NCBI GenBank assembly: GCA_013151635.1
Contig: JAADHV010000103.1
Location: 1 to 49,232, forward strand
Length of the DNA: 49,232 nucleotides
DNA from: Deltaproteobacteria bacterium
GTDB taxonomy: Bacteria > Desulfobacterota > Desulfobacteria > Desulfobacterales > Desulfobacteraceae
Direction: 5' to 3'
Shown here: positions 8,330-17,142 of the stretch, in pieces
Layout of the letters: each line of letters begins with the position of its first letter
Position numbering within the stretch: position 1 is the first letter of the stretch
Made by a program: the position numbers and the translations under genes
Notes under the pieces: model-generated
Seen by the model: the letters and a program-made list of their open reading frames with translations, nothing else
What the model was told of the DNA's origin: nothing
Databases searched by the model: none

Positions 8330-10048
8330 ATGGTGCAGGCTTTTTATCATGATCTTGAGCCTGAAGATTTGCCAGCCCCCGGCAAACAGGCCATGCAATT
8401 GATTCAGTACTCATTGCGTGACGATACCAGAATAGATATGTTGACCCGGTTGATATCTGTAAACCCTGCATTAACAGCCCAGCTTCTTGGGATTGTCAAT
8501 TCGGCTTTTTTCGGGCTTCGCCAAAAGGTAAAAACTATCTCCGGTGCTGTGGTTGCCATGGGTCTTTCTAGCCTTAGAAACCTGGTGTTATGTTTTGCTG
8601 TGAAAGAAGCTCTTTCAAAAAAAGAGATCCCGGGTTTTGATATCGATATTTTTTGGGAAGACTCAATTCGAAGAGGGGTTGCAGCAAAGCAGCTTGCCTG
8701 CCTTTTGAATGGGCCGGCTGAAGAAGCTTTTACCGCCGGAATGCTACAGGATATCGGCTTGATGGTTCTTTTTTTTATGGAGCCTGAAAAAGTTGACAGA
8801 TGGCCATTGCTAAGATCAAATCTTCCCTGGCGCCGTTATGAAATGGAGGAAGAATTATTCCATACCACCCATGACAGTGTCGGGGCGTTGCTGGCCGGAA
8901 AATGGAACCTGCCTGAATCCTATACCCTGGCAATAGGTTATCATCATTTGTCCTTTAATAAAAATAAAATCTTAAACTATGGCCGGTCAAAAAAGCCGTC
9001 TGTCCTGGCCGGAATCATGCATTTGTCTGATTTATGCAATGCTTTTTATACCTGCCATGATAAATCAGGGGCCATGACCGCGCTTAAGAAGAAATCCAAA
9101 ATGCTTTTTGCCTTAACAGGTGATAAAGTGGACTCTCTTTTATCCTTGCTGCCGATCCGGGTTAAAGAAATGTCTGATACATTGAATATCCCTGTTGACT
9201 CCCAGGTTGATTTTGAAACAGTGATGGGGCAGGCCAATAGAAAACTGGTTGAAGATAATATAAGTTACCAGGAACTTACCTGGCAGTTGCAGAATTCATT
9301 AAAACAGAGGGATGAATACGCAGCCAGGCTGGAAGCGGAACTTGATATTGCAAGGGAAATTCAAAAAAGCCTTCAACCTGATATCGGAAGGATTCATCAG
9401 GTCGGGGCGTTTAATATTCCGGCTTTCCATTTGTCAGGTGATTTCTATGATTATTTTACCAAAGAAGACGGTACCATTTGTTTCTGCCTCGGGGATGTAT
9501 CAGGTAAAGGAACATCAGCAGCATTGCTTATGGCAAAAGCCATATCCCTTTTCAGGTGTTTATGCAAAGTGGTTGATGATATAAGCACGATTGCCCAGTT
9601 AATGAATAATGAGCTTTGTGAAACTGCGGTCAGGGGTATGTTTGTCACATTTGTCGGGGGCTGGCTGGATCCTGCAACCAATGACCTGAATATTGTCAAT
9701 GTGGGGCACCTGCCGCCATTTATAGTGGACGACAGGAAAATTACAAAAATCGAGCCTGCTGATCCCCCCTTGGGAGTACTTCCTGGAGTAATGCATCCTG
9801 CAAGACTGTTTTCCATAAAAAACAGCCGCTTGTATCTTTATACGGACGGGTTTACAGAAGGGCGGTTAAAAAAAGGTGAAAAAAAAGACATTGGCCGTGA
9901 ACTTGGATTAAAAGGTTTTTTAAGGTGGCTTGTCCAGTCAGGAACAATGCCGCTTGAAGATCAGATAGCCTGGATAAAAGACCGTTGCAAATCGCATCTG
10001 GAGCCTCAGTCGGATGACCTGACATTTATGGTCTTGTCCGGGGAATAA
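8330..10048 (+). CDS. HDOD domain - PP2C (RsbU/SpoIIE) serine phosphatase
   Basis: A 572-residue cytoplasmic signalling protein. Residues about 14-215 are an HDOD domain: LPAPGKQAMQLIQ, ISVNPALTAQLLGIVNSAFFG, GMLQDIG and YHHL. A coiled linker (about 315-348, ending DIAREIQKSLQP) leads to a PPM/RsbU phosphatase at about 350-570, with SGDFYDYF (D371), LGDVSGKGTSAALLMAK (D389), LYTDGFTE and a C-terminal SDDLTFMVL. Such enzymes dephosphorylate STAS anti-anti-sigma proteins. ATG 8330 is the first start after an in-frame TAG at 8318 and has no good ribosome site of its own. A 16-codon TTG frame with GGAGG upstream ends in TGATG overlapping this start, hinting at coupled translation. It stands alone and converges with the LysM gene. 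Confidence 0.9.
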   Translation: MVQAFYHDLEPEDLPAPGKQAMQLIQYSLRDDTRIDMLTRLISVNPALTAQLLGIVNSAFFGLRQKVKTISGAVVAMGLSSLRNLVLCFAVKEALSKKEIPGFDIDIFWEDSIRRGVAAKQLACLLNGPAEEAFTAGMLQDIGLMVLFFMEPEKVDRWPLLRSNLPWRRYEMEEELFHTTHDSVGALLAGKWNLPESYTLAIGYHHLSFNKNKILNYGRSKKPSVLAGIMHLSDLCNAFYTCHDKSGAMTALKKKSKMLFALTGDKVDSLLSLLPIRVKEMSDTLNIPVDSQVDFETVMGQANRKLVEDNISYQELTWQLQNSLKQRDEYAARLEAELDIAREIQKSLQPDIGRIHQVGAFNIPAFHLSGDFYDYFTKEDGTICFCLGDVSGKGTSAALLMAKAISLFRCLCKVVDDISTIAQLMNNELCETAVRGMFVTFVGGWLDPATNDLNIVNVGHLPPFIVDDRKITKIEPADPPLGVLPGVMHPARLFSIKNSRLYLYTDGFTEGRLKKGEKKDIGRELGLKGFLRWLVQSGTMPLEDQIAWIKDRCKSHLEPQSDDLTFMVLSGE

Positions 10049-10064: not shown

Positions 10065-10841
10065 TTATTCTGATTGCTTGATTGCTTTGATATTTTTTTG
10101 AATGGTTTTTGCCTGATTTAATAATTCTGTAATCTTTTTATATTCCGGGTCCATTTTTTGAACAAGTTCCCATTCCAAAATAGCCAGATTCAGGTTTTGT
10201 TCGTCATATAGTTTCATGCCGGATTTGTAATGGCGTTCTTTATAAAGATTCCGGCTTTTTGTAATCATGTTTTTACACGGGGAACAATTTTTATTAAAAG
10301 TCAAAGCTGTCTGGAAATTTTCAATGGCATCAAGAAATTTTCTCTTTTTGAAAGCTTCTAATCCAAGCTGGTAGTGAGTCTTGGAAATGTTGGCCATTGA
10401 ATCCTTGTTTTTCGGGTCTGCCTTTTTTTCCGGCTTCATTGATGTATTTGTATCCTGTCCATCGTTTCCTGCCTGTTTGATAAAAGGATATTTTTTCAGC
10501 TCTGGTATCTTGATTTTCATGCCTGCACGAATGCGGGCAGCGTCTTTGATATTATTCATCCTGGCAATGATGGATGATTGATTGAAATTGCCATAAAAGG
10601 TTTTTGAGATTTTCGAAAGGGTTTCACCTTTTTTTATGATATGCCAGATATATTTTTGAATATCCTGGTTGTGCACAGCTTTCAGGGGCTTCCTGGCTTT
10701 TATATGTATTTTTTCTTCTTTCATGGGTATCGTGGGTTTTTTCCGGGGGCTTGCACAGCCCGCAAAGAAAAAGCAGACCAGTATGGCAATACAAAAGCTT
10801 TTGTGTCTATTGCTTATTTTCAAAAATGTATTTGTTCTCAT
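10065..10841 (-). CDS. LysM-domain lipoprotein with TPR-like C-terminus
   Basis: A 258-residue exported lipoprotein: basic N-terminus, hydrophobic segment and lipobox FAGC with Cys29. Residues about 64-112 are a LysM motif (WHIIKKGETLSKISKTFYG up to MKIKIP), expected to bind peptidoglycan. A charged low-complexity linker follows, then about residues 150-245 with two TPR-like repeats (YQLGLEAFKKRKFLDAIENF and YKSGMKLYDEQNLNLAILEW). It is the last gene of the four-gene signalling operon, nine bases after the cyclase. It probably sits at the inner face of the outer membrane or in the periplasm. Its link to the upstream cyclase is by position only. Confidence 0.85.
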   Translation of the reverse strand: MRTNTFLKISNRHKSFCIAILVCFFFAGCASPRKKPTIPMKEEKIHIKARKPLKAVHNQDIQKYIWHIIKKGETLSKISKTFYGNFNQSSIIARMNNIKDAARIRAGMKIKIPELKKYPFIKQAGNDGQDTNTSMKPEKKADPKNKDSMANISKTHYQLGLEAFKKRKFLDAIENFQTALTFNKNCSPCKNMITKSRNLYKERHYKSGMKLYDEQNLNLAILEWELVQKMDPEYKKITELLNQAKTIQKNIKAIKQSE

Positions 10842-10849
10842 GATGTATA

Positions 10850-12271
10850 TTATTGTCTTAAAGTTTCAGACTCAGACCTTTTTTTACCGGGAAAAATAAG
10901 TTTAAAAACCTGGATTTTAATTTTCCGGCCTTTAATGGGTATTAAACCTTTTTCCTTGAATTTAAAATTGCCGGATTTGTTCAGCATATCATATGTTCCC
11001 CTGCTTATCAGGATTTCGCCGGGGCCGGCAAGGGAGGTCAGCCTGGATGCAATATTGACATTGTCGCCAATTACCGTGTATTCCATTTTCTTTTTGGAAC
11101 CAAGGTTGCCTGAGACCATTTCTCCTGTGTTGATACCAATTCCTATTCTTAATGCAGGGGCTGTATTTTTATTTGCAAGGGTTTCTATGAGATCCATAAT
11201 CTCAAGCGCTGCTTTCACGGCATCCTTTGCATGATCAGGATCCTTTTTTGTAATGCCGAAGATAGCCATGGCAGCATCCCCGACAAATTTGTCAATATGC
11301 CCGCCATGGCGAATGATAATATCAGTTATCTGTGTGAAATGTTTATTGAGCATGTCAACAATATCTTCAGGCGCCTTGTCTTCTGAAAGGGCTGTAAATC
11401 CCCTGATATCCGTGAATAATACCGTGGCCTCTTTTAAAGAGGCTTTCATCCAGTGGCCTGAAGGGTTTGCAAGGATCATATCAACAATCTCGGGGGCAAC
11501 ATACCGGCCAAACGAATCTTTTATTTTTTCCTTTAGCTCAATATCCATTGCCATTTGGTTAAACGCATCTGCAAGCTCGCCTATCTCATCATTGCGGCTG
11601 ATGGCTGCCTTTTGCCTGTAATCCCCTTTGCCGAATATTTCCACGCTCTTTTTTAATTTGTTAATGGGGTGTGAGAAATAAACACTGAAACCCAGGCTCA
11701 ACAGGAGTGCCAGGAAAATAATCACAATGAATGATATCAGGATATATTTTTTAGACTGGGCGATATTTTTTTCAATGATGTTTTGAGAAATGACAATACG
11801 GGCATTTCCAATGTCAACATTTTGATATTCCAGGGGTTTTTCCAGGAATAAAAATTTTTCCCCATTAATCTCAAATGTGCTGAGAATAACGCCCTGTGGG
11901 TTTGTGCTTATTTCCAAAAGGCCTTTTGGCGGTTTATAGGTCTTGTTTACCTTATCAAGATCACTGTGGGCAACAATTATGTTTTTCTGGTTGGCAATGC
12001 TGGCCCAGGCTATCTGCTCATTCTCCGAAATATTTTTTACCAGTTGAAACAATGCAAGATCTTCTTCAGCCAGAAGTTTGTCTGGGGCATTTTTGGCCAT
12101 GATATGCAAAAGGCTTTCCCCAAAAGTAATCAACTGGTTTTTAAATTGCTTTTTCTGGACATTTAATACTATAAACCCGATGGATGATGTGATGGCAATT
12201 ACCAGCAGGCATGAAAAAACTATCAGCTTAATAAATATCGGGATTTTTAATTTTGCTTTTTTTTTCAACAA
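10850..12271 (-). CDS. membrane-bound class III adenylyl cyclase with HAMP
   Basis: 473 residues: TM1 about 11-37, a periplasmic sensor region about 38-175 (single-Cache size), TM2 176-198, HAMP about 198-250, and a class III cyclase domain about 282-460. Metal-binding aspartates are D288 (FTDIRGFT) and D332 (KFVGDA). K328 and D403 (VIGDNVN) match adenine-specifying positions, and N406 and R410 match transition-state residues. All key residues are present, so it should make cAMP. The TTG start overlaps the end of the RsbW-like gene by seven bases (12265-12271). A cyclase coupled to an RsbU/RsbW pair suggests that an external signal is linked to partner switching. The sensor ligand is unknown. 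Confidence 0.9.
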   Translation of the reverse strand: MLKKKAKLKIPIFIKLIVFSCLLVIAITSSIGFIVLNVQKKQFKNQLITFGESLLHIMAKNAPDKLLAEEDLALFQLVKNISENEQIAWASIANQKNIIVAHSDLDKVNKTYKPPKGLLEISTNPQGVILSTFEINGEKFLFLEKPLEYQNVDIGNARIVISQNIIEKNIAQSKKYILISFIVIIFLALLLSLGFSVYFSHPINKLKKSVEIFGKGDYRQKAAISRNDEIGELADAFNQMAMDIELKEKIKDSFGRYVAPEIVDMILANPSGHWMKASLKEATVLFTDIRGFTALSEDKAPEDIVDMLNKHFTQITDIIIRHGGHIDKFVGDAAMAIFGITKKDPDHAKDAVKAALEIMDLIETLANKNTAPALRIGIGINTGEMVSGNLGSKKKMEYTVIGDNVNIASRLTSLAGPGEILISRGTYDMLNKSGNFKFKEKGLIPIKGRKIKIQVFKLIFPGKKRSESETLRQ

Positions 12272-12678
12272 TTAAGTTTCTTTACCATTTTTATTTTATT
12301 GAATCCTTCCCGGGTGCGGCTGTATTCAACTATATCCATAACCTGTTTGATAATATAGAGGCCAAGTCCCCCTGGTTTAAGCTGGCTGGTGTCTCTTGGC
12401 TCAATCGAGTTGATATCAAATCTGATACCGCTGTCAATAATTGAGATGGTAAGAAGATTTGTCATAAGGTTAAAGCATACATCAATTTTACGGTTATAGT
12501 CATTTTTATAGCCGTGTCTTATTATGTTGGAGCAGGCCTCATCAACAGCAAGAATGATGTTTCCGGCAACTTCTTTTGAAATACCGGCTTTTGAAGCTAT
12601 ATCTGCCATTGCACTCCTGATACATTTCAGGTTCTCAGGATGCGAGCTTACGCATAGATGAACAGGCTTTAATTCCAT
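12265..12678 (-). CDS. RsbW/SpoIIAB-type serine kinase (anti-sigma factor-like)
   Basis: A 137-residue GHKL ATPase of the anti-sigma-kinase family. N-box VDEACSNIIRHGY (E47, N51), G1-type DSGIRFD and G2-type GGLGLYIIKQ are visible. These kinases phosphorylate a serine on a STAS protein and can bind sigma or other partners. It is five bases downstream of the GAF-PP2C phosphatase gene (TAA at 12683) and overlaps the cyclase start by seven bases. No sigma factor gene is in the window. The nearest STAS gene is in the divergent mla operon (16160-16507). Confidence 0.85.
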   Translation of the reverse strand: MELKPVHLCVSSHPENLKCIRSAMADIASKAGISKEVAGNIILAVDEACSNIIRHGYKNDYNRKIDVCFNLMTNLLTISIIDSGIRFDINSIEPRDTSQLKPGGLGLYIIKQVMDIVEYSRTREGFNKIKMVKKLNC

Positions 12679-12682
12679 AATA

Positions 12683-14065
12683 TTAATCCGTGCTGAATAC
12701 CAGCAGGGTTAAATCATCGCTTCTGCCTTCCGTGACTGTAAATTTGTCAACTTTGCCAGTGATGCCTTTAACAATTAAATCCGGGTCGTTGGGCCGGGTT
12801 TCAATCTCTTTTAAAAGCCTTTTAATCCCGAATAATTCTCCATCAGCGTTTTTTGCTTCAATAACGCCGTCGGTATAAATAGTGACGCTTGAATTTTTTT
12901 CAAGTTTAAATATTTCCTGTTCATATTCAACATCCGGTATAATGCCAAGCGGCGGGCCCTTTTTGCTGTCATGGCCCAAAAGACTTACACCCTTGTCATT
13001 TGAACAGACAGGGGACATATGACCTGCATTGGCTATCCTTATCCGGTCTTCAACCGTATCCAGAAGCATGTATACAAGGGTTACGAACATGCCCCTTTTT
13101 GCCCTTTCACAAAGAACCTTGTTCATCTGGGTTACAAGTTCCCCGGGGTCGGGATATAAAAGGGTATAATATTGCAGATCACTGGTCAGCCTTGCCATAA
13201 AAAGAGAAGCTGAGATTCCTTTGCCTGAAACATCACCAAGGACAATTCCAAGCTTATTTGAGGGCAACCGGAAAAAATTGTAAAAATCACCCCCGATTTC
13301 AAGGGCAGGCTGGTTTAATGCGGCAAACCTGTATTTATCCACCAAGGGAAGCTCTTTTGGCAAAAAGCTTTCCTGAACTTCCTTGGCAAGCTTTAAATCC
13401 CTTTCAAGAGTTTCTTTCTGCAAAATGATTTTATGCATTTTGGCGGTGTCAATGGCCACAGCAGCACTGCTGCTGATGGTAATCAGCATCTCAAGTTCTT
13501 CATCAGAAAAGAAAAAAGGGTTGGCAAGTTTGTTAATTACCTGGATAATGCCGATTATTTCACCCCGGACCTTAAGCGGCACACACAGCATGGCGCGTGT
13601 ACGGTAATTTGTTTTCCTATCCCATTCAGGGGAAAATTCCGGATGAAGGTATGCATCCTTAATGTTGAGGGGTATTCCTGTCCCGGCAACCAGCCCTGCA
13701 ATTCCATGCCCTTTTTTCAACCTGTATATTTCCTTGATTTCATCGCCGACATCCCCAAGGGCAATCTGGAATGTCAGATCTCCTGTTTTTTCATCTAATA
13801 GAAGCATGCTGACCGCATCGGCTCCAAAGGCTTTTTTTGTTGCCCCCATTACATTGGAAAGAAGTTTTCCAATGGAAAGTTCAGAGTTGATTAAATTGGC
13901 TATTTCAATGCAGTTGGACAAACGTTCAACTTTATTGATACAGGCTTTAAGGTCTGATGAATGATCCGTAATCATAAATTGGGCTATATTCTTATCTGCT
14001 GCCATATCATGATTTTTATATAAAGCCTTTAAGGCTTTGTCAATCTTTGTAATTATCGTTGACAC
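12683..14065 (-). CDS. GAF domain - PP2C (RsbU/SpoIIE) serine phosphatase
   Basis: 460 residues. GAF domain about 55-212 (SIGKLLSNVMGATKKAFGADAVS, RTRAMLCVPLKVRGEIIGIIQVINK), helical linker about 212-235 (LKLAKEVQESFLP), then a PPM phosphatase about 240-458 with GGDFYNFF (D260), LGDVSGKGISASLFMA (D278), YTDGVIEA and SDDLTLLVF. It should dephosphorylate a STAS protein in opposition to the RsbW-like kinase encoded next. The start is GTG at 14065 with no strong ribosome site. It is the first gene of the operon and is separated by only 63 bases from the divergent mlaF. The GAF ligand is unknown. Confidence 0.9.
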   Translation of the reverse strand: MSTIITKIDKALKALYKNHDMAADKNIAQFMITDHSSDLKACINKVERLSNCIEIANLINSELSIGKLLSNVMGATKKAFGADAVSMLLLDEKTGDLTFQIALGDVGDEIKEIYRLKKGHGIAGLVAGTGIPLNIKDAYLHPEFSPEWDRKTNYRTRAMLCVPLKVRGEIIGIIQVINKLANPFFFSDEELEMLITISSSAAVAIDTAKMHKIILQKETLERDLKLAKEVQESFLPKELPLVDKYRFAALNQPALEIGGDFYNFFRLPSNKLGIVLGDVSGKGISASLFMARLTSDLQYYTLLYPDPGELVTQMNKVLCERAKRGMFVTLVYMLLDTVEDRIRIANAGHMSPVCSNDKGVSLLGHDSKKGPPLGIIPDVEYEQEIFKLEKNSSVTIYTDGVIEAKNADGELFGIKRLLKEIETRPNDPDLIVKGITGKVDKFTVTEGRSDDLTLLVFSTD

Positions 14066-14128
14066 GGCAAATAGGGTAAGCTATTTATTATCAATATCAA
14101 AAAAACAGACAAGTGACAGACTCAACCT
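14066..14128. promoter_or_regulatory. 63-bp divergent promoter region, RsbU operon / mla operon
   Basis: Both operons must start within or beside this short AT-rich gap, so their promoters are back to back or overlapping. I could not assign confident -35/-10 boxes. Confidence 0.4.
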
Positions 14129-14914
14129 ATGATTAAAGTAGAAAATCTTGTAAAAAGATATGGCAATGTCACAGCATCAAACCATTTGAATTGTCATTTC
14201 AAAAAAGGAAAAATCACTGTTATTCTCGGGGGAAGCGGTTCCGGGAAGAGTACCCTTTTAAGGCAGATTACAGGGCTTGAAAAACCTGATTCAGGGGCTG
14301 TGTATTTTGAAGGCATGGACTTGACATCCCTTGGGAAAAAAAAATTATATAAGCTCAGGAAAAAAATGGGCATGCTGTTCCAGGGTTCCGCTCTTTTCAA
14401 TTACCTGAATATCTTTGAAAATATAGCATTCCCTTTGCGTGAACACACAAAAATTGCCGATAATATTATTAAAACAATTGTAACGATGAAACTTGAAATG
14501 GTCGGGTTAAGAGGGACTGAGGATCTCATGCCCTCCCAGCTGTCAGGTGGTATGATGAAAAGGGTAGGGCTTGCAAGGGCCATTGTGATGGACCCTAAAA
14601 TCATATTTTATGATGAGCCTACCTCCGGCCTTGACCCTATTTCAACCGGTGTGATTGGTAAGCTTATCAAGGATTTTAACCAGGCTTTGAATATTACATC
14701 CGTGGTGGTTTCCCATGATATTGAATCCAGCTTTAAAATTGCCGATAATATTATCATTCTTTTTTACGGTGATATTATTGCAGAAGGCACTGTGGAAGAA
14801 ATAAGAAACAGCGATGATTTAAGGGTGAAACAATTTATCAACGGGGAGCCAGAAGGCCCCATCCCCTTTACCCGTACGGATAAGAACTATTTAGATGAGA
14901 TTTTGTTTGACTAA
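14129..14914 (+). CDS. mlaF: Mla-type ABC transporter ATP-binding protein
   Basis: A 261-residue ABC ATPase of the phospholipid/MCE transporter type. Walker A GGSGSGKST (34-42), LFQGSALFNYLNIFENIAFPLREH (the MlaF-typical Q-loop region), signature LSGGMMKR (138-145) and Walker B plus D-loop IIFYDEPTSGLDP (158-170). It energises lipid movement between inner and outer membrane with MlaE and MlaD, which are encoded next at 15-17 base spacing. It is first in the order F-E-D-STAS-C. ATG is used with no obvious ribosome site. The family call is firm. Confidence 0.92.
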   Translation: MIKVENLVKRYGNVTASNHLNCHFKKGKITVILGGSGSGKSTLLRQITGLEKPDSGAVYFEGMDLTSLGKKKLYKLRKKMGMLFQGSALFNYLNIFENIAFPLREHTKIADNIIKTIVTMKLEMVGLRGTEDLMPSQLSGGMMKRVGLARAIVMDPKIIFYDEPTSGLDPISTGVIGKLIKDFNQALNITSVVVSHDIESSFKIADNIIILFYGDIIAEGTVEEIRNSDDLRVKQFINGEPEGPIPFTRTDKNYLDEILFD

Positions 14915-14929
14915 AGGAGCGTTGTAAAT

Positions 14930-15697
14930 TTGGAGATTGCAGCATCACTTGGCCGTTTTACTTTAAATCGCCTTCAGATTCTTGGCAGGAGTGGAATTTT
15001 TTTGTTCACTTCTATTTTCCAGGCATTTTCCCTGCCGTTAAGGATAAAGCGGCTTGTCAAAGAAATTGAATTTATCGGATCAAAATCATTTTTGATTGTT
15101 TTTGTGACCGCCCTTTTTACCGGCATGGTTCTCGGCATTCAGGGGTATTACTCGCTGAGCCAGTTTGGAGCGGATGCTGCCCTTGGCATCATGGTCTCCC
15201 TTTCTATCATAAGGGAACTCGGGCCGGTGCTTTGTGCTCTCATGGTAACCGGGAGGGCAGGCTCAGCCATTACAGCGGAAATAGGCATCATGAAAATTAC
15301 GGACCAGTTTCCGGCCCTTGAAATGATGGCCATTGATCCGCTTAAATATGTGATAAGTCCTAAAATTTTTGCAGGAATTCTTTCTTTGCCTCTTTTGACG
15401 GCCTTTTTTGATCTTGTCGGCATTGCCGGCGGATACCTTGTCGGGGTGAAACTTCTAGGGGTCAGTGAAGGTGCTTATCTTGGCAAAATGGTGACAGCCG
15501 TCACGTTTACAGATATTTACGGGGGAATTTTAAAATCCCTTTGTTTCGGACTTTTAATAACCTGGATATCATCGTTTATGGGTTTTACAGCCGAACCTAC
15601 TACGGAAGGTGTGAGCCGCGCAACCACCAATGCGGTGGTTTTGACTTCGCTTTCAATCCTTATTGTGGATTATATCTTGACATCTTTATTACTATAG
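14930..15697 (+). CDS. mlaE: Mla-type ABC transporter permease
   Basis: A 255-residue MlaE/permease-family membrane protein with about five to six hydrophobic segments. Family landmarks are FVTALFTGMVLGIQGYY, REL-GPVL, VTGRAGSAITAEIG-MKITDQ-ALE, and an EGVSRATTNAVV C-terminal motif. The start is TTG at 14930 with AAAGGAGC about nine bases upstream, and no ATG lies nearby in frame. It forms the membrane channel for the ATPase and MCE proteins encoded on either side. Confidence 0.92.
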   Translation: MEIAASLGRFTLNRLQILGRSGIFLFTSIFQAFSLPLRIKRLVKEIEFIGSKSFLIVFVTALFTGMVLGIQGYYSLSQFGADAALGIMVSLSIIRELGPVLCALMVTGRAGSAITAEIGIMKITDQFPALEMMAIDPLKYVISPKIFAGILSLPLLTAFFDLVGIAGGYLVGVKLLGVSEGAYLGKMVTAVTFTDIYGGILKSLCFGLLITWISSFMGFTAEPTTEGVSRATTNAVVLTSLSILIVDYILTSLLL

Positions 15698-15714
15698 GAT
15701 TTAAATTAATTATC

Positions 15715-16152
15715 ATGTATGGAAGAAAAACAGAAATATCCGTAGGTATTTTCATGATGGTGGGCATAGCCTGCCTGGTATATTTATCCGTTAACCTTGG
15801 CAATGTTGATCTTTTCGGGTCGGATTCTTATACTATTGATGCAAGGTTCGGTTCCATAGAAGGACTTGAGGTGGCAGCATCTGTTGAAATTGCAGGTGTG
15901 CCTGTGGGTAAGGTTAAAAAAATTACCCTGGAAGATGATGAAGCCCTTGTACAAATGGAAATAAAAAAGGGAACAAAAATTACAGATGATACCATTGCTT
16001 CCATTCGTACAAAAGGAATTATAGGAGACAAGTTTGTCAAGTTGTCACCAGGCGGTTCTGATGAAATATTGCAAGATAAGGACTCTTTGATGGATACAGA
16101 GTCTGCCATCAGCCTGGAAGAATTAGTCAGTAAATATATTTTTGAAAAATAA
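15715..16152 (+). CDS. mlaD: MlaD-type MCE-domain lipid-binding protein
   Basis: 145 residues: one N-terminal membrane anchor (about 9-27) followed by an MCE domain (about 38-113; IDARFGSIEGLEVAASVEIAGVPVGKV, TIASIRTKGIIGDKFVKLSPGG). It should form the periplasmic hexameric ring on MlaE. ATG 15715 was chosen because the longer frame from 15541 lies inside mlaE and adds non-family sequence. It ends with a short C-terminal helix. The 17-base gap to mlaE and eight-base distance to the STAS gene mark one operon. Confidence 0.9.
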   Translation: MYGRKTEISVGIFMMVGIACLVYLSVNLGNVDLFGSDSYTIDARFGSIEGLEVAASVEIAGVPVGKVKKITLEDDEALVQMEIKKGTKITDDTIASIRTKGIIGDKFVKLSPGGSDEILQDKDSLMDTESAISLEELVSKYIFEK

Positions 16153-16159
16153 CAGGCCT

Positions 16160-16507
16160 ATGAGTTTTAAAATTAAAAGCAAAGAAAAAGAAAACATCGG
16201 TGTCATCACCGTTGAAGGCGAAGTTGATATGTTCACATCACCAAGTTTGCGTGACAAGCTGCTTCCTTTTTTTGAAAAAGAAGTTAAAGGTATTATTGTC
16301 AATCTTAAGGGGGTTTCATTCATGGACAGTTCCGGTATTGCAACTCTTGTGGAAGGCCTTCAATGGAGCAGGAAAGATGACAGACAATTTATATTGACAG
16401 GATTGGGTGAAAATGTTTTGAATGCTCTTTGCCTTACAAAGCTGGATAACGTGTTCAATATAAAAACAAATGCAGATGATGCATATAAAAAATTGTGCGA
16501 ACGTTAA
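16160..16507 (+). CDS. STAS-domain protein (MlaB-like or anti-anti-sigma factor)
   Basis: A 115-residue single STAS domain. GVITVEGEVDMFTSPSLRDKL and VSFMDSSGIATLVEGL give the diagnostic motif; Ser57 in DSSG matches the serine phosphorylated in RsbV/SpoIIAA. ATG 16160 is preferred over a TTG at 16142 that lies inside mlaD. In E. coli a STAS protein (MlaB) is an essential subunit of MlaFEDB, so its place here fits MlaB. Its RsbV-like serine motif also makes it a possible substrate of the RsbU/RsbW pair encoded divergently. Both roles could be true; the sequence does not decide. Confidence 0.85.
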   Translation: MSFKIKSKEKENIGVITVEGEVDMFTSPSLRDKLLPFFEKEVKGIIVNLKGVSFMDSSGIATLVEGLQWSRKDDRQFILTGLGENVLNALCLTKLDNVFNIKTNADDAYKKLCER

Positions 16508-16536
16508 AAGATTGGATGTACTACAGGGAGGTATCA

Positions 16537-17142
16537 ATGAAACAATCTAAAATTGCTGTTCTTGTCCTTATTTTTTTTTCGGCCTGTGTGTTTTTTTCTG
16601 CACAAGATGCTTTGGCGTCACCTGCCCGGGACCAGTTGAAACTGACCATTGATCAAGTCCTTGAAATATTGCAGGATCAATCCCTGAAAGGAGAAGAACA
16701 TACAAAAGCAAGAAGGGCATCCCTTCGCAGAGTAATCCATGAAAGATTCAGTTTTGCCAAGATGTCACAATTGAGCCTTGCAAGGCACTGGAGAAAAAGA
16801 AGTAAAGAAGAAAAGAAAATCTTTATTGGGCTTTTTGGAAAACTTCTTGAACAAACTTATATATCCAAGATGGAAGCCTATACCAGTGAAAAAGTGGTTT
16901 ATGTTAAAGAATTTGTGAAAAAAAAGAAAGCCCAGGTTTATACTAAAATCATTACGGATTCAGTTGACATTCCCATTGATTATCGAATGTATAAAACAAA
17001 GGATGGCTCCTGGATGGTATATGATATTGTGATAGAAGGCGTCAGCCTGGTTGGAAATTACCGGTCCCAGTTTGACCAGATCCTGCAGAAAGATACTTAT
17101 GAAAAATTATTGGGAGAGCTTAAAAAGAAAATTGAAAGTTGA
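16537..17142 (+). CDS. mlaC: MlaC-type periplasmic phospholipid-binding protein
   Basis: 201 residues with a clear signal peptide (about 1-27, ending DALA|SPA) and the MlaC/Ttg2D family fold: VLEILQDQSLKGEE, RRVIHERFSFAKMSQLSLARHWR, LLEQTYISKMEAY and WMVYDIVIEGVSLVGNYRSQF. It ferries lipids between the inner-membrane MlaFEDB complex and the outer membrane. ATG 16537 follows an AGGGAGGT ribosome site; the frame upstream overlaps the STAS gene and lacks a signal peptide. It is the last gene of the operon and converges with the PAS gene three bases later. Confidence 0.92.
   Translation: MKQSKIAVLVLIFFSACVFFSAQDALASPARDQLKLTIDQVLEILQDQSLKGEEHTKARRASLRRVIHERFSFAKMSQLSLARHWRKRSKEEKKIFIGLFGKLLEQTYISKMEAYTSEKVVYVKEFVKKKKAQVYTKIITDSVDIPIDYRMYKTKDGSWMVYDIVIEGVSLVGNYRSQFDQILQKDTYEKLLGELKKKIES

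Follow-up and report, generated by a model that had tools for sequence, protein, structure and literature searches.

An RsbW-like kinase gene kept beside an Mla-like lipid transporter operon suggests a partner switch acting on a transporter subunit

The window analysed here (the whole stretch of 49,232 nucleotides, JAADHV010000103.1) is part of contig C44 in the 4.2-Mb genome G000 (GCA_013151635.1) of a bacterium of the family Desulfobacteraceae. It carries genes for a PP2C phosphatase and an RsbW-type kinase that lie head to head with an Mla-like lipid transporter operon, mlaF-mlaE-mlaD-STAS-mlaC, as seen from the open reading frames (ORFs) and their Pfam matches. An original prediction, made from the letters alone, had proposed that the enzyme pair could control lipid transport by phosphorylation of the STAS protein, and the genes, strands and domains that it described are confirmed here.

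Genes of the divergent locus

On the minus strand, the phosphatase gene (12683..14065) encodes a GAF-SpoIIE protein of the PP2C, RsbU-like type (Pfam GAF 63.5 bits, SpoIIE 153.4 bits), and the kinase gene (12265..12678) encodes an RsbW/SpoIIAB-like serine kinase of the HATPase_c_2 family (Pfam PF13581, 95 bits). The plus strand holds mlaF for the ATPase (14129..14914), with the motif YLDEIL in a C-terminal extension, then mlaE for the permease (14930..15697; Pfam MlaE 258.4 bits), mlaD for the MCE protein (15715..16152; TIGR04430 152.4 bits, cut-off 135), the STAS gene (16160..16507; TIGR00377 81.7 bits, cut-off 53.45) and mlaC for the periplasmic lipid-binding protein (16495..17142; Pfam MlaC 160.8 bits). 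The STAS protein is RsbV-like, has 115 residues and carries the acceptor Ser57 in a DSSG motif.

Two details of the original prediction depend on the choice of start codon. The gap of 63 bases between the divergent genes (14066..14128) holds if the phosphatase starts at the GTG at 14065, but becomes 123 bases with a later ATG at 14005, and the orthologs in G008 and G022 do begin about 20 codons later. Likewise, the acceptor is Ser57 if translation of the STAS gene begins at the ATG at 16160, but Ser63 from the TTG at 16142. A promoter consensus scan of positions 13900-14300 returned one site, where shuffled sequences averaged 1.5, and gives no evidence for a promoter in the divergent region.

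Judged from model, profile and fold matches, the transporter is Mla-like but its STAS subunit is RsbV-like. MlaF, MlaE, MlaD and MlaC are present together (Pfam MlaE, MlaD, MlaC and ABC_tran); the MlaD equivalog model and TIGR00056 were reached, MlaE fell just under its own perm_MlaE_1 model (306 vs 315), and MlaF and MlaC were far below their equivalog models. The STAS protein scored 22 bits against the MlaB model NF033618, which has a cut-off of 90. When a STAS profile of 20 relatives was compared with the PDB, TM1442, RsbV and SpoIIAA came out on top and MlaB appeared only at 2.4e-4. For a predicted STAS structure (mean predicted local distance difference test score, pLDDT, 81) the closest fold was RsbV from the RsbV/RsbW complex, with MlaB first found at rank 43. 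The best PDB match of the kinase profile was B. subtilis RsbW (E 1.6e-22), and the kinase lies below the RsbW equivalog cut-offs.

The phosphatase-kinase operon runs on into an adenylate cyclase gene. As had been claimed, it contains no STAS gene, and the STAS gene of the mla operon is the sole PF01740 match on the window's contig. Genome-wide, we see nine STAS matches, five stand-alone HATPase_c_2 kinases (ORFs under 200 residues) and eight SpoIIE matches over the cut-off. A separate rsbV-like gene whose product binds the kinase had been named as grounds for refutation; other RsbV-like genes do exist in the genome, three of them with their own adjoining kinases (on C51, C15 and C102). Contig C27 has a small STAS gene without an adjoining kinase, near a dnaK-like gene, and C40 has a phosphatase and a kinase without a STAS gene. 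The lack of a STAS gene in the kinase operon thus does not prove that the mla STAS protein is the target.

The C40 genes (L154 4189-9278), for a response-regulator-SpoIIE phosphatase and a HATPase_c_2 kinase, lie directly upstream, on the same strand, of genes that by eye resemble pstS-pstC-pstA-pstB, and may be another kinase-transporter neighbourhood. On C102 (L152 2900-6791), the kinase-STAS pair follows an 843-residue ORF resembling an ATP-binding cassette (ABC) exporter and a cNMP-binding-like ORF on the same strand, both also named by eye.

Linkage within and beyond the family

A total of 116 relatives were searched, 70 of them from the family of the window's genome, which is included in that number. 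The whole-genome searches covered one phylum. Among named genomes, only close relatives came within reach of the scan, including metagenome-assembled genomes of Desulfobacula and Desulfotignum, which makes a Desulfobacula-like sulfate reducer the most likely host. Of the 70 family genomes, 31 gave a kinase ortholog and 33 the mla-STAS type. At the thresholds used, 30 genomes have both, one has the kinase alone (G022), three have the mla type alone (G007, G015 and G023) and 36 have neither (Fisher p 2.8e-15, with kinship ignored). In G015 and G023 the locus runs off the contig, with a phosphatase fragment left in G015. A flank could be read for 29 of those 31 kinases; in 28 of these 29 genomes, the window's included, the kinase gene is divergent to mlaF, so the head-to-head arrangement, whose survey the original prediction had asked for, is a conserved one. 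The nine loci found in named genomes, some of which are the same contigs as those above, agree, with seven divergent kinases and two loci cut short. Because different genera and families share the arrangement, the closeness of kinase and mla genes is more than chance, which is ruled out by this conservation together with the other layouts described below.

Of the 28 divergent loci, 16 have the phosphatase gene between the kinase gene and mlaF, 11 do not, and one has it fused to the kinase gene. The fusion, in G001 (L108 8542-10269), is a natural one that places phosphatase and kinase in one continuous ORF. Candidate phosphatases beyond the mla genes in G048 and G060 were rejected, being weak BLAST matches only, from ORFs that fail the SpoIIE profile. 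Since the position of the phosphatase and the occurrence of the cyclase vary among family loci, the kinase is the constant partner of the mla operon, and the phosphatase and cyclase are not.

A set of 36 other MlaE loci without this STAS clade (20 from the order and family, 16 from the phylum) was used as a control. No stand-alone kinase was found among all the ORFs of these loci, which rules out the kinase as a general companion of Mla operons. The exceptions in content were an unrelated STAS in L196, a 514-residue sensor-kinase-like ORF in L177 and a weak STAS match in L185. The last of these (L185 3936-4769, genome G261) is a 278-residue ORF divergent to the mla operon, with no kinase nearby.

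Further loci were picked by STAS similarity, with neither kinase nor transporter as a search criterion. The STAS profile matched 49 of 395 phylum genomes at 1e-16, and six of these stood well apart from the others (1e-37 or better vs 1e-23); when 55 genomes from a single class were searched, 19 matched at 1e-26, two of the six strong ones among them, and searches around G135 (3 genomes) and G389 (23 genomes) gave no further strong STAS case. Outside the family, kinase, STAS and MlaE/MlaF genes occur together in 18 of the 23 genomes of this STAS clade. One of these (G373) has a divergent kinase, with MlaA and MlaC following, and the other 17 have all the genes on one strand, so that elsewhere kinase and STAS share an operon with other MCE transporters. 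The order is phosphatase-kinase-STAS-MlaE-MlaF in 13 of the 17, then an MCE gene except in the cut G533, and kinase-STAS-MlaE-MlaF-MCE in G389. The remaining three begin kinase-STAS-MlaF, followed by MlaE and MCE in G512 and G513; in G514 the contig stops after MlaF. The ends of the phosphatase, kinase and STAS genes overlap in G135, and the mlaE match of G543 is split across two overlapping ORFs. Of the weaker STAS matches from the phylum search, 24 were annotated on short loci. Phosphatase, kinase and STAS genes but no mla genes are present in 17 of them, a kinase and a STAS gene in four and a STAS gene alone in two; the last, G325, combines STAS and MlaE and lacks a kinase.

Several other features of these loci can be recorded. 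The cyclase beside the window's kinase, an accessory sCache-HAMP-adenylate cyclase by Pfam (10850..12271, minus strand), has a gene that shares 7 bases with the kinase gene and adjoins the kinase in only four further family genomes (G006, G013, G018 and G022). An accessory LysM-TPR protein gene (10065..10841, minus strand) closes the run of phosphatase, kinase and cyclase, and its convergent neighbour encodes an HDOD-SpoIIE protein (8330..10048, plus strand), a possible second phosphatase kept in part of the genus. In G051, a putative transposase-like ORF (L119 9355-10563) separates mlaF from mlaE. Lone extra STAS paralogs with 47-59% identity to the mla STAS occur in four genomes of genus g11 (L145-L149), and no kinase or mla gene lies beside them in the stretch fetched.

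Conserved residues, the MlaF tail and phylogeny

The residues on which a partner switch would depend are well conserved. The acceptor Ser is present in all 53 STAS proteins collected (52 with DSSG, one with DSAG), and the N-box Glu and Asn in all 51 kinases, with the G1-box Asp in 50 and the G1 Gly in 46. The metal-binding aspartates are found in all 36 aligned phosphatase orthologs.

E. coli MlaF is reported to have a C-terminal helix whose Tyr261, Leu265 and Leu266 are inserted at the MlaF-MlaB interface. The YLDEIL tail of the window's MlaF is the counterpart of this helix. Using a pattern composed after the linked tails had been seen, the motif was found in 32 of 32 MlaF proteins of the window's own type (including G007 and G481, with no kinase beside) and in 14 of the 16 from co-operonic loci. 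Loci that lack this STAS gave 6 matches among 34 MlaF proteins, of which only L185 looks genuine. The table behind these counts omits L103, L106, L117 and L118 and has an empty entry for L233; rows G012, G015 and G023 are labelled head to head in it and have no kinase in their locus. The motif is kept here and mostly absent without this STAS, which supports the view that the STAS protein docks on MlaF.

In trees with weaker STAS matches, four outgroup loci and pairs from the window's own genome as background, the linked kinases group as a single clade apart from 28 background kinases, with support of 98/97 with 35 rows and 90/87, not starred, with 46 rows, from which four near-duplicate family rows were left out. 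The G022 kinase was counted as family-linked although it is not beside mla genes. The STAS rows also form one clade (95/97), which is partly built in by selection, and 23 of 24 GAF-PP2C rows form one (100/100). Membership of the G373 PP2C in this phosphatase clade is not supported by the best tree, where it falls outside, though the test is compatible with a single clade (p 0.33). The linked MlaE permeases, by contrast with the kinases, are not one clade (approximately unbiased test, p 2.6e-54) and occupy at least three places in the tree. Because the kinases form one clade and the linked permeases do not, the simplest reading seems to be that one kinase-STAS cassette has retained MCE transporters as its partners or acquired them repeatedly.

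A proposed switch, its alternatives and known systems

The link of kinase, STAS and transporter proteins is well supported, and the interpretation given in the original prediction is supported with it, phosphorylation itself being a proposal drawn from the genes. The finding is real and larger than first described, and points to a partner switch in which a transporter subunit serves as the antagonist. We consider it probable that the RsbV-like member of this module is the STAS subunit of the MCE/Mla lipid ABC transporter and that phosphate acts as the off signal. We infer that the kinase interacts with the STAS protein and phosphorylates it at Ser57, and that a signal governs the reversal. Like MlaB in E. 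coli, the unphosphorylated STAS protein would dock on MlaF and hold the transporter in an assembled, active state; phosphorylation of Ser57, at the centre of the docking face, would lower MlaF binding or activity; and the GAF-PP2C protein would strip the phosphate when its GAF domain senses the signal, making the transporter active again.

The direction of this proposal comes from E. coli. There, MlaB binds MlaF through a helical face with Thr52 near its centre (Kolich 2020, Thong 2016), and the phosphomimic T52E reduces MlaF-MlaB binding (Kolich 2020). Our profile alignment of the STAS protein with its PDB relatives is consistent with this residue being equivalent to the acceptor in RsbV/SpoIIAA. 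Because T52E weakens MlaF binding in E. coli, and the RsbV/SpoIIAA residue equivalent to Thr52 is the kinase target, we model the phosphate as switching the transporter off.

A number of observations weigh against this proposal. The phosphatase gene is not between kinase and mlaF in the 11 family genomes counted above, and in G389 and G512-G514 the kinase has no labelled phosphatase close by. The complete genome G007 keeps the mla-STAS operon and its Ser with no match to the kinase at 1e-15, and G481, outside the family, has STAS and mla genes with no kinase beside. G022 has the cassette without STAS and no mla genes in view, the neighbour of its kinase being presumably an SDR-like ORF; G539 and G540 carry phosphatase-kinase-STAS with no mla genes in view, and G544 and G545 a lone STAS. 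Among the 51 kinases, Ala replaces the G1-box Gly in five and one lacks the G1 Asp. Finally, T52A abolishes ATPase activity in E. coli with assembly kept (Kolich 2020, Thong 2016), and the site may therefore matter beyond binding.

Information could also flow in reverse. The kinase would then be an anti-sigma factor, and the Mla STAS protein, free or bound according to transporter state, would release a sigma factor, coupling the lipid state of the envelope to transcription. The nearest solved relatives of the kinase, RsbW and SpoIIAB, are indeed anti-sigma factors, and the STAS protein matches an anti-sigma factor antagonist model. However, no sigma-factor domain was found among 20 neighbour proteins of eight linked loci (part of the neighbours, four of which matched nothing, with the rest of the genome unsearched), and the STAS gene is embedded in a transporter operon whose MlaF tail is conserved, so we regard this direction as unlikely.

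A second alternative inverts the sign: the kinase would sequester the STAS protein by tight binding, or tune the ATPase, and phosphorylation would release it, with phosphate as the on signal. Partner switches generally compete for one STAS face, and the loss of ATPase activity in an intact T52A assembly would suit this model, but the effect of T52E favours phosphate as the off signal, and the conserved catalytic residues of the kinase also speak against sequestration; we find it quite improbable. It is very unlikely that kinase and phosphatase serve another RsbV-like protein, with mla closeness reflecting co-regulation or shared history only. In favour of this reading, the genome has further small STAS proteins (one with no adjoining kinase), the cassette stands without mla genes in G539 and G540, and a divergent layout alone is no proof of a common pathway. 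Against it, 17 genomes have the STAS gene between kinase and transporter genes, all on one strand, and more than one MlaE lineage (several, in fact) is joined to the cassette.

Returning to a switch that turns the transporter off, what is new here is a candidate dedicated kinase and phosphatase for an Mla STAS protein. Published work calls MlaB regulation an open question and proposes phosphorylation without naming an enzyme (Kolich 2020, Thong 2016). The claim that no RsbU/RsbW control of Mla had been described holds for the enzymes, as we recognised no paper describing a kinase for MlaB or Mla in the open-licence literature, preprints aside (PMC7367683, PMC5016091 and PMC8256260 among the sources), but not for the idea of MlaB phosphorylation, which is already in print. 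For MlaB-type regulation, these loci put forward concrete candidates: a kinase, a phosphatase, an acceptor residue and a target. It appears quite likely that a dedicated kinase-phosphatase cassette, with an MCE transporter subunit as its RsbV-like target, has been recruited by several lineages for direct, reversible phospho-control of lipid traffic between membranes.

Three known systems invite comparison. SypE/SypA of Vibrio fischeri is alike, by description only, in having a STAS output whose Ser is phosphorylated and dephosphorylated and whose unphosphorylated form is active, but a review gives its target as unknown and does not describe it as a transporter subunit. MlaFEDB-MlaC of E. coli shares the F-E-D, STAS and C genes, the MlaF C-terminal extension and an MlaD over the model cut-off; its MlaB, however, is a short STAS protein with Thr52 and no known kinase, whereas here an RsbV-like protein of 115 residues comes with a kinase and a phosphatase. 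The closest sequence and fold matches are the Bacillus partner switches, RsbU-RsbV-RsbW and SpoIIE-SpoIIAA-SpoIIAB, which likewise combine a PP2C phosphatase, an HATPase_c_2 kinase and a single-domain STAS protein with a DS acceptor. Unlike in Bacillus, the STAS gene here sits in a lipid transporter operon, with no sigma factor among the scanned neighbours, and a type of switch known chiefly for controlling sigma factors may here work on a membrane transporter directly.

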